IMG/VR virus record: IMGVR_UViG_3300043449_000316
Span: 1 to 20,352 of that record
Source of the DNA: a virus
Length of the DNA: 20,352 nucleotides
Reading direction: 5' to 3' (one strand)
A program made the position numbers and the translations under genes. Numbering within the stretch: the stretch's first letter is position 1; every line of letters begins with the position of its first letter. The notes beneath the pieces were generated by a model. It was not told the origin of the DNA. It saw nothing but the letters and a program-made list of their open reading frames with translations, and ran no database searches. Positions 8,343 through 19,105 of this stretch are shown piece by piece.

Positions 8343-8662
8343 GGGCCAATCAGTAGCTGGTAGACGCGACTGTAAGCCAACGCCCACTCGGGGTCATGGT
8401 CGCAGGTGGTGGCGTGGCCTTCGCGCCATGCAATCGCGTGGGCCCACTCGTGCATGAGCGTGTCCACGATGGTCTGGTTTGAGCCCTTGCGGATCTCAAT
8501 GACGAAGTGGCTGGGCCGCATGTCTCGGATCTTGAGGGAGCAGGAGCCTAGCCAGCCCTCCTCGTTGATGCGGTCGCGCAAGTAGACCCTCACCGGCAGC
8601 AGCGGCGGCAGCTCTGCACGCAGGCGGGCGACCATGCCCTTGAGGGTCTTGCGCTTGGTCAT
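8339..8662 (-). CDS. SprT-like zinc metalloprotease domain protein
   Basis: This gene encodes 107 aa, starting at ATG 8662 and overlapping the metallophosphoesterase stop by four bases. The zincin motif HEWAH is at residues 71-75 within TLMHEWAHAIAWREGH, with a likely third ligand His89 in DHDPEWALAY. This is the SprT/minigluzincin arrangement (HExxH plus a downstream His). The N-terminal 60 residues look like a beta-sheet preceded by a basic helix. Known SprT-family proteins cleave DNA-bound proteins; small phage versions are common but poorly studied. It could process a head or packaging protein, since it lies in the packaging cluster, but its substrate is unknown. Confidence 0.75.
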   Translation of the reverse strand: MTKRKTLKGMVARLRAELPPLLPVRVYLRDRINEEGWLGSCSLKIRDMRPSHFVIEIRKGSNQTIVDTLMHEWAHAIAWREGHATTCDHDPEWALAYSRVYQLLIGP

Positions 8663-9729
8663 CTCTTCGCCACCGGGCCCGACAGGTTGTACTGCTGGTT
8701 GTAGTAGCCTCTGTCGTAGTACATGCGGAACCGTGGCGTGAGTTGCGTGATGGCTCCGCCCTCGTGCTGCTCGGCTTCGATGATGACGCCGCCGACGTGG
8801 TACTCCAGCCCCTTCTTGCGACCGAAGGTGTCAAGGTCCTTGGTGCACGGGACGAGGATGGCGTGCACGTTGCGGGCTTGGAAATAGCCGTGCTTATGCC
8901 AGTGGCCGAAGGCCCAGATGGCGGGCTTCTCGCCGCCCTGCGCGGCCTCGATGCGCTTCTGCGCTGCATAGCTGATCGCATATGCAGAGCCGCCACCGGG
9001 GTGGTCGATCAGCATGCGGGCGTGGCGTTTGGTCTTCGGATGCTCCAGCGTGATGAAGCACTCCTTGTAGCCGAGGCTCACGAGGTCGTTGCGGCCTGCG
9101 CGGCGTGCGGTGTCTTGCAACATGCGCCCGATGTCCACGCCTTCGCGCTGGCTGTACCAGCCCTCATGGTCATCGCCGCTGACGTAGTGGGTCTCAATAC
9201 CCCGGCGGTGCGGGTACTGCTCCACCATCAGGTCGAGCTGCGCCTGCATGCCGTGGGCGCGGTCGTCGAGCTCGTGCTTGTTGAAGCGTGCCTCGCCCTC
9301 GATCCAGTTGCCTGCGTGGTAGACGCGGGTGATGCCCTCGCGGGCGAACCAGTCGTACAGGTCGTCGAGCACGTCGAGGCGGCAGTGCTTGGAGCCGATG
9401 TGCGTGTCGGCCACGAGGCCGAAGCGGTACGGCTCGTTGGCCTTGCCCTTGACGGTCCAGACGGTCTCGCTGTCGGGAGCGAGGTGGCGGTCGATGCGCC
9501 ATCGGCCAGCTTGCAGCACGAGGTTGGCCCCTGCTGCCTTGTAGTCACCCAACAGCTCCTCGACCTCGCCGGGGCGTAGGCCGAAAGTCTCGCTGATCTC
9601 CTTCTCGGACAGCGACCGTACGAGCAACGCCTGCCGCACCTTCTGCGGGTAGTTGAGGCGGCGCGGGTCGGCGTCGAGCGTGTCGATCAGGAAGCTGTCG
9701 AGGTCGCGCTTCTTAGACTTGCGGCTCAT
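8659..9729 (-). CDS. Calcineurin-like metallophosphoesterase with N-terminal helix-turn-helix
   Basis: This gene encodes 356 aa, starting at ATG 9729 and coupled by ATGA to the gene before it. Metallophosphoesterase motifs occur in order: ADTHIG (D108, H110), AGNWIEGE (N141), SGDDHEG (D186-H188), a lone His243 in DHPGGGS, and GHWHKHG (H276, H278). Residues 25-90 contain LSEKEISETFGLRPGEVEELL and a short wing, a DNA-binding-like helix-turn-helix. The family includes nucleases (Mre11, SbcD) and phosphatases. Its place among the terminase genes suggests a DNA end-processing or packaging-linked role, but the substrate cannot be told from sequence. Confidence 0.85.
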   Translation of the reverse strand: MSRKSKKRDLDSFLIDTLDADPRRLNYPQKVRQALLVRSLSEKEISETFGLRPGEVEELLGDYKAAGANLVLQAGRWRIDRHLAPDSETVWTVKGKANEPYRFGLVADTHIGSKHCRLDVLDDLYDWFAREGITRVYHAGNWIEGEARFNKHELDDRAHGMQAQLDLMVEQYPHRRGIETHYVSGDDHEGWYSQREGVDIGRMLQDTARRAGRNDLVSLGYKECFITLEHPKTKRHARMLIDHPGGGSAYAISYAAQKRIEAAQGGEKPAIWAFGHWHKHGYFQARNVHAILVPCTKDLDTFGRKKGLEYHVGGVIIEAEQHEGGAITQLTPRFRMYYDRGYYNQQYNLSGPVAKR

Positions 9730-10459: not shown

Positions 10460-10849
10460 TCAAGTGGCCGGGGGCAAGAGCGGGTCAGGCAGCTCGACGG
10501 TGACAAGCGTGATGCCGTCAGTGCCGAGCTCGACGGCGGTGCGGCGCAGGGTCCACCGCTTTGCCTTGCCACGCGGGCCGCGTTTGGCCCACGACCAGAC
10601 CTCGAAGTGGGCGGCGCATTGCAGCCATGTCAGCAGGCGCGGCTCGGCCATGGCCTTCTTGAGGCGGGCAGAGTGGCTGCTGCCAGCGCAGGCTTGGATG
10701 CCGAGGACTGACCCGGTCAGGGCCACGAGGTCGATGCAGCCAAACAGGTCCTGCCGGATGCGGGCGTGGGGGTTCCACTTTTCGACGACCTGCACCGTCC
10801 ACTGCATCTTGCGGGCGTGGGCGAGGGTGCGTTGGGTTGGGCTAGACAC
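10460..10849 (-). CDS. PD-(D/E)XK-like nuclease / resolvase-like protein
   Basis: The preferred start is GTG 10849, which overlaps the sigma-factor stop, giving 129 aa; a TTG at 10882 is an alternative. The core is RQDLFGCIDLVAL (D34, D40), then LGIQACAGSSHSARLKK (Q52), and a C-terminal segment with WSWAK followed by KRWTLRR. This matches a phage group in which 'R.DlfGfiDl...' and 'iQ...' form a PD-(D/E)XK-type fold related to Holliday-junction resolvases and VRR-NUC nucleases. The usual Lys after the Q/E is replaced by Cys, so activity is uncertain. It lies between the sigma factor and small terminase. A role in resolving branched DNA before packaging is possible. Confidence 0.55.
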   Translation of the reverse strand: MSSPTQRTLAHARKMQWTVQVVEKWNPHARIRQDLFGCIDLVALTGSVLGIQACAGSSHSARLKKAMAEPRLLTWLQCAAHFEVWSWAKRGPRGKAKRWTLRRTAVELGTDGITLVTVELPDPLLPPAT

Positions 10850-11324
10850 AGATGGCTCGAAGGTAGCGCAGGGCCTTGGCAATTCGATGGCTTATGGCCG
10901 AGCCGGACACCCCGGTCAGCTTGCCGATCTTGGTCTGGTCGTACCCGCACAGGTAGTGCATGACCAGAGCTTGCCGGGTGAGCGGCCCTACAAGGTCGAG
11001 GACGGCCCTAGCCTGCTCCTTGTCGGCCACATGGTCTGGTTGGTCAGGGGCAGGTACTCGGGCCAGCGTTCGCCCCTTGTCGGCTGCTAGGAAGTGCCAG
11101 CCGTGGAGGCTAATGCCGTCGAGGATGGCTCCTCGGATCCGCAGGCGGGCGTAGGGCGTCCATGGCCCCTTGTCCGGGTCGTACTTGGCAAGGGCATCGA
11201 GCAAGCCATCAAGGCCAAAGCTGGCAAGCTCGTCGCGGGTCCAGTAGCCACGCATCCTGCGGCGCAGGCGTTCTGCCACCTGAAGGACTAGCGGCCAGTT
11301 GCGCTCGACGGCGTCGCGGTCCAC
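10842..11324 (-). CDS. Phage-encoded sigma-70-family factor (regions 2 and 4)
   Basis: This gene encodes 160 aa, starting at GTG 11324 one base after the previous stop. Region 2 spans about residues 10-80: DELASFGLDGLLDALAKYDP then PYARLRIRGAILDGI, the -10-binding and core-binding helices as in the FliA/SigB type. Region 4 spans about 104-156: LTRQALVMHYLCGYDQTKIG then VSGSAISHRIAKALRYLR, a helix-turn-helix for the -35 box. Region 3 is short or absent. It would redirect host RNA polymerase to phage promoters. Sitting just before nuclease, terminase and head genes, it could switch on late transcription, possibly including its own cluster. That regulatory role is inference; the family call is firm. 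Confidence 0.85.
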   Translation of the reverse strand: MDRDAVERNWPLVLQVAERLRRRMRGYWTRDELASFGLDGLLDALAKYDPDKGPWTPYARLRIRGAILDGISLHGWHFLAADKGRTLARVPAPDQPDHVADKEQARAVLDLVGPLTRQALVMHYLCGYDQTKIGKLTGVSGSAISHRIAKALRYLRAICV

Positions 11325-13004: not shown

Positions 13005-13853
13005 TTAGAAGTTGGGGATGGGCGGCTCGTCACCACCCTCTTCAGCCTTGGCGGCAGCCTCCTCAAGCTCGGCCTTGCGGGCGCGGTACGCCTCGCGGGC
13101 TGCTTTCAGGTCGCTGCCGGTCAGTTGCTTGGCCGAGTCCTTGCAGGCGTCGAGGCCAGCAAGGTCGCGGGCTGCGTCGAAGCAGGCAAGGATCTCCTCC
13201 AGCAGCACGGGCTGCGGGGCGACGACCTCGGCGGGCTTGACCACCTCGACCTCGGCCACTGGCATCCCTGCGGCGGCCAGCTTGGCGGTAAGTCGGTCGG
13301 TGCCGGTCGGTGCCACAGCGGGCGCAGACTTGCCTTGGATCTCGTCGAGCTCGTCGAGGCTGTAGCTGCCCGACATTACCTCGGCGGCGAACGCACGACC
13401 TGCCGAAGTCACGGCGCGGGCGCGCAGCATGGTCTCGGGGTAGCGTTGCCAGCCTTGGCCTTGGTTCCACAACCCGGCAGCCTGTGCGCGAGCCTTGTCC
13501 CACTTCTCGATGTGGACGGCACCTTTGGGGTCGGTGAGCTTGAGCACCACGCGCTCGGCGGACGACTCGGTCCACTCGACGCGGTAGCCGTTGCGCTTGA
13601 GCAACGCCACCCACAGCGAGTAGTCGGCACCCACCTTGCCCTTGACCACATGCAAGCCACGCATGGCGGCCATCGGGCCAAGGCCCAGTTCGCGGCCTGC
13701 GAGGATGGTGGCAAGAATCTGGCCCTCGGTGCGAAGGTGTTCGGGGATCAGCCCCGACGCGCCCTTCAGCATGCGGGCCAGTTCCATCATCTGAGGGACG
13801 GCGGCGAGCACGTCGGTGCTGGCGGCCACGGTAGCAATCGTCATCTCGGTCAT
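13005..13853 (-). CDS. RecT-like single-strand annealing recombinase
   Basis: The chosen start is ATG 13853 (MTEMTIATVA), giving 282 aa, with AAAGGAAGACGACG directly upstream; the open frame beyond overlaps the exonuclease gene. The core matches a RecT/Bet-superfamily group found in phages: GLIPEHLRTEGQILATILAG, RELGLGPMAAMRGLHVV, then KVGADYSLWVALLKRNGY and WQRYPETMLRARAVTSAGR. These proteins bind single strands exposed by the partner exonuclease and anneal them to homologous DNA. The YqaJ-type exonuclease is encoded 26 bases upstream, completing a recombination pair. The C-terminal 80 residues are charged and probably helical, perhaps for partner contacts. Confidence 0.75.
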   Translation of the reverse strand: MTEMTIATVAASTDVLAAVPQMMELARMLKGASGLIPEHLRTEGQILATILAGRELGLGPMAAMRGLHVVKGKVGADYSLWVALLKRNGYRVEWTESSAERVVLKLTDPKGAVHIEKWDKARAQAAGLWNQGQGWQRYPETMLRARAVTSAGRAFAAEVMSGSYSLDELDEIQGKSAPAVAPTGTDRLTAKLAAAGMPVAEVEVVKPAEVVAPQPVLLEEILACFDAARDLAGLDACKDSAKQLTGSDLKAAREAYRARKAELEEAAAKAEEGGDEPPIPNF

Positions 13854-13879
13854 CGTCGTCTTCCTTTCATCGGCTGCGG

Positions 13880-14764
13880 TCACTTGAGCCGCAGCACTCG
13901 GGACTCGGTCTGGTTGCAGCACTCCTCGTAGATCGAGCTGTACTGCGCCTTCAGTCGTGCGGTGTCGAGTCGCCTCGCCACCTGAGTTTTCCATGTTGCC
14001 ACGGTCTTACCCGTCGCGTCAACAGCGGTGTCGGCATCTTGCATCGCCCGCTTGAGGGCAAGCTCGCATGCTTCCATCTCCTTCTCAAGCTCCGCGATGC
14101 GCTCCTTGAAGATCTGGCGGTTGTTGATGGCGATGATCACGTCCTCGGGCAGCGTGACGCTGCGCCCGGTGGACTTGCGCCACAGGTCGTTGGCCTCGGC
14201 AGCCGTGACCGGGTCGGGCGGAATCTCCTTGAGCACGTTCTCGTGCCAGAACTTGTCGGCCAGCGCACGGAGCTGGTTGACCACGAGCGGGATCTTGCGC
14301 TGCGTGTAGATGCGGAAGTCGCTGCCCGCGATCAGCACGGCGAAGTCCACGCGGTCAAGGCCGAGCACGTCGCAGTACCACTGGCCTTGGCAGGCGTAGT
14401 GGTCCGGCACGTCGTCGCTGTATGCCTGACCCCAGCCCCTGTCGGTGCGTGCGGTCTTGGCCTCGACGACGTAGGTGCTGCCGTTAAGCACGGCCTCAGC
14501 GTCCACGTTTGCCATGCGCCAGCCATCGGCCAGCACCATGTCGCGCTTACGAAGCGTGGCCCCGGTTTGCTGTGCGTAGGTGTCGAGCACCAGCGGCTCC
14601 AGCTTGGTGCCCCAGCTCATCGCGGCGTTCTCCTCGACGGTGTCGCCAAGAACCTTCTCCTTCCAGACTTGGAGCGGCGTCTTCCACGGGTTCAGCCCGG
14701 CGATGGCAGCCACGTCGCTGCCACCGATGCCCTTGCGGCGAAGCTCTGCGAAGGTGTTAGTCAC
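13880..14764 (-). CDS. YqaJ-type viral exonuclease
   Basis: This gene encodes 294 aa, starting at GTG 14764 with AAAGGA upstream. The N-terminus has GIGGSDVAAIAGLNPW and SWGTKLEPLVLDTYA, the YqaJ signature. The PD-(D/E)XK core follows: NVDAE (D88), then VVEAKTA (E101, K103), with a Q-x-QWY motif near residue 130. A coiled coil lies at about 215-240. This family digests one strand from double-strand ends, loading the annealing protein encoded next. It overlaps the preceding small gene by eight bases. The catalytic residues look intact. Confidence 0.88.
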   Translation of the reverse strand: MTNTFAELRRKGIGGSDVAAIAGLNPWKTPLQVWKEKVLGDTVEENAAMSWGTKLEPLVLDTYAQQTGATLRKRDMVLADGWRMANVDAEAVLNGSTYVVEAKTARTDRGWGQAYSDDVPDHYACQGQWYCDVLGLDRVDFAVLIAGSDFRIYTQRKIPLVVNQLRALADKFWHENVLKEIPPDPVTAAEANDLWRKSTGRSVTLPEDVIIAINNRQIFKERIAELEKEMEACELALKRAMQDADTAVDATGKTVATWKTQVARRLDTARLKAQYSSIYEECCNQTESRVLRLK

Positions 14765-16823: not shown

Positions 16824-17069
16824 TCAGTTGATCACTTGGCAATCGCGCACGAACATCGTGCCACCGGGGCCGGATGCTAGTTCAACGCTCAACCAGTTGT
16901 GGCAGCGGTGGCAAAAGCTGCGGACCTTGACCATCTTGTCGATGATGCTGATGCCACCAGACTCCATCTTGCGCTTGCCGCTCAACCCAACCTTGGCGGT
17001 GACCATGTGCGGATATTCCGTCTGCTGGCAGCAGGGGGGCAGGATCTGAAACTGGATCGTCGTCGTCAT
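16824..17069 (-). CDS. Small Cys-pair protein of unknown function
   Basis: The preferred start is ATG 17069 (81 aa), placing AAAGGA eight bases upstream; an ATG two codons earlier would leave almost no spacing. The protein has CC at residues 13-14 and CHRCH at 53-57 with a later Cys, so a zinc site is possible. The middle part is basic (GLSGKRKM). It looks like a small nucleic-acid- or metal-binding protein but matches no family I can name. It is the first gene after the 175-base regulatory gap. Confidence 0.6.
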   Translation of the reverse strand: MTTTIQFQILPPCCQQTEYPHMVTAKVGLSGKRKMESGGISIIDKMVKVRSFCHRCHNWLSVELASGPGGTMFVRDCQVIN

Positions 17070-17244
17070 CGTCATCTTCCTTTCTCGTCGTCGTCGTCGT
17101 GGTCAGCACTGCGCTGCCCACACAAGCAGTATCGACCAAGTAGACGCTGGGATTCACTAGTTGTTCCCAAATCCTGCGCGTGTTACACGGCGTTCGGGTG
17201 CCGTTCGGGTTGTACGGTGCGGGAGAATACGCCCGAACGGACAC
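17070..17244 (-). promoter_or_regulatory. Intergenic control region with palindrome and CGTTCGGG repeats
   Basis: Three kinds of repeat lie in this gap. An imperfect 20-base palindrome at 17149-17168 has arms GGGA and TCCC around a central ACTAGT, as in many repressor operators. CGTTCGGG occurs at 17191-17198 and 17202-17209 and inverted at 17232-17239. The second and third copies form a nine-base inverted repeat (CCGTTCGGG with CCCGAACGG) whose loop contains TGTACGGT, an 8-mer shared with two other gaps. Five CGT triplets lie at 17086-17100. No clear -35/-10 pair was found. It probably holds the promoter and operator of the middle operon. Confidence 0.5.
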
Positions 17245-17520
17245 CTAACGGCTGCCGTCCTGCGCCTTGCGCCTGCGGACCTTGGCCGGGGGCGGCGTCT
17301 GGTGGTTGGGAAAGGCACTGGCTAGGCGTGCCTTGACCTTGGTGCCCATTGGATCCTCGCACTGCACGCTGGTTGCCCCGGCGTCGTAGAGCACGTCGAG
17401 CACAACCTTGTCGGCGTTGCAGACAACCCTGATTTGCCACGAGGTAGGGCCACGGTCGAGCCAGTGCAGCACCGAGAACCCGTGGCGTTGCGCCTCGGCC
17501 ATTGCATCTTGAAGCTTCAC
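17245..17520 (-). CDS. Small protein of unknown function downstream of helicase loader
   Basis: The start is GTG 17520, overlapping the helicase-loader stop as GTGA, giving 91 aa; the longer open frame upstream is a shadow. The N-terminus is helical (VKLQDAMAEAQRHGFSVL), then comes a mixed beta part (SWQIRVVCNADKVVLDVLYD) and a basic tail (KVRRRKAQDGSR). No known motif. It ends the replication operon. The tail hints at DNA or RNA contact. Confidence 0.6.
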   Translation of the reverse strand: MKLQDAMAEAQRHGFSVLHWLDRGPTSWQIRVVCNADKVVLDVLYDAGATSVQCEDPMGTKVKARLASAFPNHQTPPPAKVRRRKAQDGSR

Positions 17521-18296
17521 ATTCGCCCCCGGCGATGCGAGTGCCAGTTGAACATCACGGCCTTGCCGCCCGACTCGCGCATGCGGTCGAGTATGCGTTC
17601 TCCGATCAGCACCTTCAACGCTTCCATCTCCAAGTTGCTGATAAGCACAGTCGGCTTGAGCGCGTTGTACCTGTCGTTGATCACCTCGAAGGTCACGTTG
17701 CGTTCCGCGTCGGACCCGTACTGCACGCCTACCTCGTCGACGATCAGCAGGTCGGGCTCGGTGTAGCAGGCCGTGACCTGACTGGTCTTCTCGGTGGCCA
17801 GCGGACCCCACGACTCCTTGATGCGCTGCATGAACTTGCCGAAGGTGACGTAGCGCACGGTGCGCTTGAGGGCCACGACGTGCTGCGCAATGGCAACCGC
17901 AAGATGCGTCTTGCCGGTGCCGACCGAACCGACGAACAGCATGGACTTGCCGGTCTTGCATGCCTCGGTGAACCGCTCGGCAAAGTGTCTGGCCTCGCGG
18001 AGTGCGTTGACCTGTCCCGCAGTGGACGCCTCGTAGTTCTTGAACGTGTGGTTCTTCCAGCGGATCGGGATGCCAGCGTCTTCCAGCCTTTGCTGCTCTT
18101 GCAGGCGGCTGTCCTCGGTGTTGCGCCCGCATTCGTCAAGGTGCCGCTGGGCCTCCTCCTCCTTGACGCACTGCATGCATGGCGTCCAACGGTCTGCCCT
18201 CCAGTTGCTGCTCTTGTAGGGTCCGTGGATGCAGCACTCGCGCTGCTCACTTTGCGGGTTTCTATTTCCGCCCATAAGGGTGCTGACGTGGTTCAC
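17517..18296 (-). CDS. dnaC-like: DnaC-like helicase-loader ATPase
   Basis: This gene encodes 259 aa, starting at GTG 18296 and overlapping the initiator stop. An N-terminal zinc-like module has C21-C22-x-HG, then C40-x2-C43. The AAA+ core has Walker A VGSVGTGKTHL (about 122-132), Walker B LLIVDEVG (183-190), sensor 1 TVLISNLE (216-223) and a C-terminal IGERILDRMRESGG with the conserved Arg. DnaC-type loaders place the replicative helicase on the melted origin. The gene follows the DUF1376 initiator that carries the iteron array, a common replication pairing. No helicase gene lies in the window, so the phage may use the host's. Confidence 0.88.
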   Translation of the reverse strand: MNHVSTLMGGNRNPQSEQRECCIHGPYKSSNWRADRWTPCMQCVKEEEAQRHLDECGRNTEDSRLQEQQRLEDAGIPIRWKNHTFKNYEASTAGQVNALREARHFAERFTEACKTGKSMLFVGSVGTGKTHLAVAIAQHVVALKRTVRYVTFGKFMQRIKESWGPLATEKTSQVTACYTEPDLLIVDEVGVQYGSDAERNVTFEVINDRYNALKPTVLISNLEMEALKVLIGERILDRMRESGGKAVMFNWHSHRRGRM

Positions 18297-19105
18297 AGGA
18301 TCTCTCCGTTGGGGCCAATGCCCTTGGTGTAGTCGACCTTGGTGAAGTCGGGATGGGCTAGGGTGTAGCCGCTCTTGCCGTTCGAGCTGGTAGCGAATCT
18401 ATTGTTCTGCACCCAGTCGCTGCGGAACGACTGCCATCCCCGGGACGCGGCTTCGAGGAGGGCTGCCTCAAGGGTGAAGCCTGCCTTGGCCGCCTCGGCC
18501 CGGATGCCGTCGAGGGCACCGACCGTCAGCGGCGCACGCCGCGCCTTGCGGATGGCAATGAAGCCTTCCCATGTTGCCGGGGTCACGTCCTCGGGTCGCT
18601 CTGCTTGAACACTACGCCTGCGTGCAGGCGGCGCGTCGTCAGACGCGCTTGTATTCTTCTTTGTATTGGGGCTGGTTACTTGGTTACTGAGGCTGGTTAT
18701 TGGTTTGGTTCCCAGTGGGATGCCACTGGGTTCCGACTGGGATGCCACTGGGATCCCACTGGGATCCCGCTGGGATGCCACTGGCTTGCGACTGGCTTTC
18801 TTGGCTACGCGACGCTTGCCGTTTTCGCGGTTGCGGTCGGCCAACTTCTGGTACTCCGCAAGCTCCTCATCGCACCGCTTGTTGTGGAACCCGGTCTCGG
18901 TGCGCTCAAACATGTCGGCCAGCACCTGCTCAAGGATGGCAAGGTCCACGCGCAGCCGCCGGGATAGCCATGCGGTGTCTAGAGGCAGGGCCTGCTCGGT
19001 GCTGTAGTACCAGTCGAGGCAGCGGCGATAGACCAGATCCTGCTCGTTGGTTAGGTGCGCCGTGGCCGCTTGGTAGTCGTTGACGTGGAAGCGGTAGTAG
19101 TGCAT
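18293..19105 (-). CDS. DUF1376 (YdaU-type) replication initiator protein
   Basis: The chosen start is ATG 19105, giving 270 aa. Residues 1-90 match DUF1376: MHYYRFHVNDYQAATAHLTNEQDLVYRRCLDWYY and so on, including DTAWLSRRLRVD. Residues 91-165 are a low-complexity linker with an 11-residue repeat (IPVASQSEPSG). Residues about 175-240 resemble the C-terminal domain of phage replication organisers (WEGFIAIRKARRAPLTV, then ASRGWQSF). Such proteins bind the origin and recruit the DnaC-like loader encoded next. The linker DNA contains an 11-base-period repeat array, listed separately. The overlap TGATG with the gene before suggests coupling. Confidence 0.78.
   Translation of the reverse strand: MHYYRFHVNDYQAATAHLTNEQDLVYRRCLDWYYSTEQALPLDTAWLSRRLRVDLAILEQVLADMFERTETGFHNKRCDEELAEYQKLADRNRENGKRRVAKKASRKPVASQRDPSGIPVASQSEPSGIPLGTKPITSLSNQVTSPNTKKNTSASDDAPPARRRSVQAERPEDVTPATWEGFIAIRKARRAPLTVGALDGIRAEAAKAGFTLEAALLEAASRGWQSFRSDWVQNNRFATSSNGKSGYTLAHPDFTKVDYTKGIGPNGEIL
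18651..18799. repeat. Putative replication origin: 11-bp-period iterons and AT-rich flank inside the initiator gene
   Basis: Seven direct copies of a box close to CCACTGGG, each followed by a three-base spacer, run without gaps from 18723 to 18799 with a strict 11-base period. An inverted copy, CCCAGTGG, lies at 18711-18718, so the first two boxes form an eight-pair palindrome. Just beyond, 18651-18710 is about 42% GC, far below the surroundings, and holds direct CTGGTTA repeats. In lambda, iterons inside gene O lie next to an AT-rich melting region in the same orientation. The array codes for an 11-residue repeat (residues 103-132), so a protein-level cause is the alternative. Confidence 0.65.

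Follow-up and report, generated by a model that had tools for sequence, protein, structure and literature searches.

Two DNA repeat arrays inside DUF1376 genes as candidate phage replication origins

The window analysed in this study is a 20,352-bp (base pairs) fragment of a viral contig from IMG/VR (IMGVR_UViG_3300043449_000316). Its phage genes include those for a terminase, a portal protein and RecE/RecT-like recombination. A DUF1376 gene is encoded on the minus strand towards the right end of the window; the linker region of this gene contains an array of 11-bp boxes followed by an AT-rich tract with AACCA motifs (Table 1). Judging from sequence comparisons with relatives, DUF1376 proteins are very probably phage replication initiators, with the linker of their gene serving as the replication origin.

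Two repeat arrays in a DUF1376 gene

The window protein scored 65 bits against PF07120, for which the curated cut-off is 30.1, and is a member of the DUF1376 family. In PHROGs, it was placed among 'primosomal proteins', with residues 1-147 matching primosomal/DUF1376 phrogs, and its C-terminal part was placed with 'replication initiation O-like' proteins (phrog_678), the alignment of which begins only at residue 75. The loader gene adjoins the DUF1376 gene, an adjacency expected of a lambda-type in-gene origin.

Table 1 Features of the DUF1376 locus in the window
Feature	Position	Strand	Basis
DUF1376 gene, proposed initiator, holding the candidate origin	18293..19105	-	270 amino acids, ATG at 19105; PF07120 E=8e-18
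DUF1376 domain, codons 1-85, predicted winged-helix-like	18851..19105	-	AlphaFold2, predicted local distance difference test (pLDDT) mostly >90; Foldseek
Basic tip of the long helix 76-105, codons 88-103, proposed box-reading element	18797..18844	-	Residues covarying with box type
Eight 11-bp dyadic iterons, consensus CCAGTGGSATC, core CCCA-N-TGGG	18708..18795	-	Tandem Repeats Finder and direct reading of units
AACCA motifs (five), a degenerate version of the 7-bp AACCA array conserved in relatives	18673..18710	-	Motif positions in the window
60-mer with the lowest GC in the gene (0.417), candidate unwinding element	18647..18706	.	GC scan of the gene
C-terminal helical domain (O-like), codons 176-242	18380..18580	-	phrog_678; AlphaFold2, structured after the disordered linker
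DnaC-like helicase loader gene, overlapping the 3' end of the DUF1376 gene	17517..18296	-	phrog_50 E=1e-64, IstB_IS21/Bac_DnaA

Tandem Repeats Finder detected the 11-bp array and its multiples of 22 and 33 bp with scores of 101-109. Read along the coding (minus) strand, the units follow one another in gapless 11-bp steps as CCAGTCGCAAG, CCAGTGGCATC, CCAGCGGGATC, CCAGTGGGATC, CCAGTGGCATC, CCAGTCGGAAC, CCAGTGGCATC and CCACTGGGAAC, and every unit is nearly palindromic around CCCA-N-TGGG (window box, CCCANTGGG). An initial annotation of this DNA had placed a strict 11-base array of seven direct boxes and one inverted box inside the gene. The array was confirmed, but its count and the inversion were not: there are eight units, and the supposedly inverted box is unit 8 (18708-18718), the same near-palindrome with another central base. 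The inversion was rejected as an artefact of palindromic boxes, for which the distinction between direct and inverted is nearly meaningless. The lag-11 identity of the best 86-bp stretch was 0.81, while synonymous-codon shuffles of the same gene gave a mean of 0.48 and a maximum of 0.65 (n = 500). The lag-11 periodicity is beyond chance and beyond what the protein repeat yields. Since 11 is not a multiple of three, as had also been pointed out in the initial annotation, the same DNA box falls in all three reading frames, and therefore the thing that repeats is a DNA box, not a peptide.

The 60-base stretch next to the array, described earlier as having about 42% GC, indeed has a GC content of 0.417 (18651-18710) as compared to 0.634 in the whole window. 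This tract is more than AT-rich, as it corresponds to an AACCA array conserved among relatives, where the 7-bp repeat is clean, which the earlier description had missed; the AACCA motifs of the coding strand appear as TGGTT on the plus strand at 18673, 18681, 18694, 18701 and 18706, inside the AT-rich stretch. The window shows the proposed two-part layout of eight dyads followed by five AACCA motifs, the latter irregularly spaced, and its phased boxes lie inside a candidate initiator gene beside an AT-rich tract, as in a lambda-type in-gene origin. A strict search at the DNA level for the box of the window matched no other contig.

Genes for a RecE-like exonuclease (phrog_434, YqaJ) and a RecT-like annealing protein are located near the DUF1376-DnaC pair (13008-14764, minus strand); in the Rac prophage, recE is likewise found near ydaU-ydaV. 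A small sigma-factor-like protein (10842-11324, minus strand; phrog_351, 5e-11) is encoded between the recombination and packaging genes, and a 356-amino-acid protein resembling a metallophosphoesterase (LVADTHIGSKH...; 8659-9729, minus strand) is encoded upstream of the packaging genes. An imperfect TCG trinucleotide run at 17057-17104 would give a poly-Asp stretch in a short open reading frame.

Conservation of the arrays among relatives

Relatives were taken from 12 records read out of 96 matching phage records and from 80 viral and 80 bacterial loci, which together gave 109 genes with <70% identity. The viral and bacterial loci were obtained with a profile of 13 homologues; the window protein as a single query gave no related loci. 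All evidence is comparative, and the gene sets share descent, which is only partly removed by non-redundant sets and partial correlations. The autocorrelation of the linkers at lag 11 was 0.088 as compared to 0.038 in synonymous shuffles (z = 19.9), and lags 22 (z = 16.6), 7 (z = 12.1), 33 (z = 7.7) and 21 (ca. 3 standard deviations, s.d.) also exceeded the shuffles, while the C-terminal control region of the same 109 genes gave no peak. The 11-mer array was above the 95th percentile of controls in 73% of the genes, as against 7-14% for periods of 9, 10, 12 and 13, and the strongest 11-mer array of the set was that of the window. Successive AACCA motifs were exactly 7 bp apart in 220 of about 300 cases. 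The comparison of homologues proposed in the initial annotation came out in its favour: the 11-bp DNA period is kept in the 109 non-redundant relatives, whereas clades differ in the box and in the residues encoded, and lags 11 and 22 (20 and 17 s.d. above synonymous shuffles) exceed the 33-bp lag of the protein repeat. The opposite pattern, a protein repeat kept over scrambled DNA boxes, was not seen as a rule among these relatives. In the linkers of L105, L110 and L132, where the usual 11-bp array is absent, there are TGTCACGCGTGAC-type dyads with looser spacing, which may form another box class.

IMG/VR DNA was also scanned with a pattern of the 7-bp array (TAACCANNAACCANNAACCANNAACCA) using no protein information. 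The scan found at least 120 loci; among the matches listed, 116 of the 118 that were assessable lie in DUF1376 frames in the sense direction, and the remaining ones are two at a contig end with a matching array and two unrelated simple repeats. Upstream of the AACCA array are 11-bp arrays whose boxes differ by clade (CCCAGTGGG, AACGGACGTT, TGCGAACGCA, CACGAACCGTG, ATCAGATCTGA and others), while AACCA is constant. Across 119 non-redundant arrays, the lag-11 identity of the last 55 bp was 0.46, with 0.22-0.33 at the other tested lags between 7 and 13. The dyad centres recur every 5.5 bp in a fixed register to the first AACCA (-32.5, -27, -21.5 and -16), with a register score of 0.33-0.35 versus 0.22 for shuffled arrays. 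The genes downstream vary among P-like loaders, DnaC-like loaders and DnaB-like helicases, and the AACCA array does not differ between these types (for example, DnaC-like in L095 and DnaB-like in L088 and L115). Computation thus shows a near-exclusive tie of the two arrays to DUF1376 genes, conservation at the DNA level and a fixed register. CACCA replaces AACCA in the second array of L163, L139, L120, L136 and L144 (prophages of Polynucleobacter, Stenotrophomonas and Vogesella); these loci keep the 7-bp period and have TGCGAACGCA-type boxes.

Covariation of the box with the tip of a long helix

AlphaFold2 predicted a winged-helix-like domain, a long helix (residues 76-105) that is basic at its end, a disordered linker (residues 106-175) that coincides with the array, and a C-terminal helical domain. 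Foldseek searches with the full model and the N-terminal domain listed mainly winged-helix regulators with no significant match, and the fold is therefore described only as winged-helix-like. A family-profile search of Protein Data Bank sequences returned nothing relevant.

Box classes were defined from the DNA by regular expressions, and a profile-based correlation of similarities was calculated independently of these classes. Mutual information between box class and residue was concentrated at residues 91-103, with a mean of 0.91 bit for residues 91-100 and 0.07-0.30 for the blocks before residue 91. Box similarity correlated with the identity of residues 88-97 (r = 0.41; 0.39 as a partial correlation on the body; all of 500 permutations ≤0.11), and in a sliding window the correlation peaked at residues 91-100 (0.475). 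The body (residues 1-85) gave a partial r of 0.04. When the box class was predicted from the helix tip by leave-one-out, 71 of 76 cases were right; with neighbours limited to those with bodies <40% identical, the tip still predicted 57 of 76, and the body 6 of 75. The window fits this scheme, as its tip NRENGKRRVAKK is similar to the NRxNGKxGGRPKK class, to which its box also belongs. A natural swap was found in L121 and L170, whose bodies are 85% identical and whose tips and boxes differ, while the AACCA array is the same. These computations show a tie between the box sequence and helix residues 88-100.

Because codons 88-103 are directly upstream of the array, the covariation could in principle reflect linkage, in which recombination moves adjacent DNA as one piece and this helix does not recognise the box; the linker could still be an origin in that case. 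The DNA of the helix codons was slightly more similar to its own array (0.371) than to others (0.359), and the arrays may extend into these codons in some genes. However, the C-terminal domain on the other side of the array, just downstream, showed no correlation with box similarity (r = 0.009), nor did residues 60-88 just upstream of the tip, and genes of the same class with bodies <40% identical are still alike in the tip (0.45 vs 0.20). Pure linkage was accordingly judged unlikely.

The candidate origin and known systems

Binding, dimer formation, melting at AACCA, helicase loading and the start of replication are the steps that we infer for an origin in the linker. The winged-helix-like N-terminal domain and the long basic helix would bind every one of the 11-bp dyads, probably in dimeric form, so that proteins would be stacked on one face of the DNA with one dimer per helical turn and unit. 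The bound row would strain and open the AT-rich AACCA array next to it, and one of the two strands of this array would then be kept single-stranded; the C-terminal domain may recruit the helicase via the loader encoded next door (DnaC-like in the window). The GC-skew minimum was located within 12% of half a genome from the DUF1376 gene in five of six phage genomes, which weakly supports an origin there.

The same arrays might instead be DUF1376 binding sites for operator or copy control (autoregulation, handcuffing), with the origin elsewhere; the covariation indicates recognition only, and iteron plasmids are also controlled via initiator dimers at their iterons (PMC5043065). We regard this as quite improbable, since the site is deep within the gene and away from the promoter, a constant AT-rich AACCA array is on the same side, helicase-loading genes follow and the GC-skew minimum is close by. 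That the repeats serve the protein alone, as a disordered linker grown by tandem duplication with no role of the DNA, is barely credible despite the predicted disorder, the 11- and 7-residue peptide repeats and an in-frame 54-bp duplication in one relative (L091), because lags 11, 22 and 7, none a multiple of three, are 12-20 s.d. above shuffles that preserve the protein, as against only 8 and 3 s.d. for lags 33 and 21, and because the boxes are dyadic, in fixed register and of unrelated sequences with a common period.

A further case is the DUF1376 protein YdaU of the Escherichia coli Rac prophage, next to which the DnaC-like ydaV is encoded. Rac holds an active origin, oriJ (PMC3945230). YdaU, which was outside the set used, also fits the link between tip and box: its helix tip KKSAAGKASVQARR belongs to the class associated with AACG/AACA dyads, and the dyads AACAGGTGTT and AACAGATGTT are present in its linker.

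Several observations weigh against an origin of this kind. The dyad spacing in Rac ydaU drifts between 11 and 12 bp without a clean AACCA array, and no source was found that maps oriJ to ydaU. Near the gene, a switch of transcription direction confounds the GC skew. In the window, the spacing of the AACCA motifs is irregular (8, 13, 7 and 5). Among the 109 genes, the array is often short, most genes having only 1-5 clear units in continuity with AACCA; lag 11 outdid all other lags from 8 to 15 in only 43 linkers (17 in controls), and 30 genes were under the 11-mer score cut-off, many being visibly degenerate and a few having neither array. The linker of L091 carries the 54-bp duplication in tandem (identity of 67% at lag 54) in place of clean 11-mers.

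We see about an even chance that DUF1376 stands for a large group of phage origins, so far undescribed, in which two codes can be separated, whichever loader is used. The swappable code would be the helix tip (residues 88-103) reading a clade-specific 11-bp dyad, and the fixed code would be the 7-bp AACCA array, a strand-specific element holding single-stranded DNA, comparable to the DnaA-trios and of independent origin. No account of this layout came up in the literature searched on DUF1376 and origins, on TAACCA repeats, on ydaU/ydaV and on iterons in initiator genes, although subscription papers were mostly outside the coverage and novelty is unproven. DUF1376 is annotated as a protein of unknown function or as a 'primosomal protein' in many phages and prophages (among them Acinetobacter, Vibrio and Bordetella phages and the E. 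coli Rac prophage). As the layout can be found by a 27-base DNA pattern, it would place origins in metagenomic phages without experiments, and the link between helix segment and box is a candidate recognition code. One stretch of DNA in the gene would carry the protein linker together with two non-triplet DNA codes.

In iteron plasmids (P1, F, RK2 and pSC101), the iterons are in phase with the turn of the helix and lie next to an AT-rich region (PMC5043065). The DUF1376 layout likewise has helically phased iterons adjoining an AT-rich region. Unlike this layout, plasmid iterons are usually outside the coding sequence of the initiator. DnaA-trios, as Richardson et al. reportedly described in 2016, are a short-period strand-specific repeat in the melted region after double-strand DnaA boxes. 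The DUF1376 layout resembles them in that double-strand boxes are followed by a short-period strand-specific repeat in a region proposed to melt; however, the trios have a 3-bp period, while the AACCA array has a 7-bp period, an unrelated initiator and putative single-strand binding.

The closest parallel is ori-lambda, which is located inside the O gene and whose iterons bind O dimers (PMC5043065). Common to both are an origin (a candidate here) in the initiator gene, dyad boxes, an AT-rich tract on the 3' side and a helicase-loader gene next to the initiator gene. The term 'lambda-like' used in the initial annotation thus fits the proposed way of working and the gene order, in which an initiator-like gene followed by a helicase loader corresponds to O-P, but does not fit as family membership: only the C-terminal part of the window protein is O-like (phrog_678), and its N-terminal DUF1376 domain differs from that of lambda O. 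Besides, the lambda record has four 18-bp iterons spaced by 20-24 bp and then an A-rich tract without AACCA repeats, whereas the window has eight 11-bp units and AACCA motifs. By this analogy, the DUF1376 system would work like lambda O and ori-lambda in outline, with an architecture that differs in the initiator domain, box length, phase and AACCA element.
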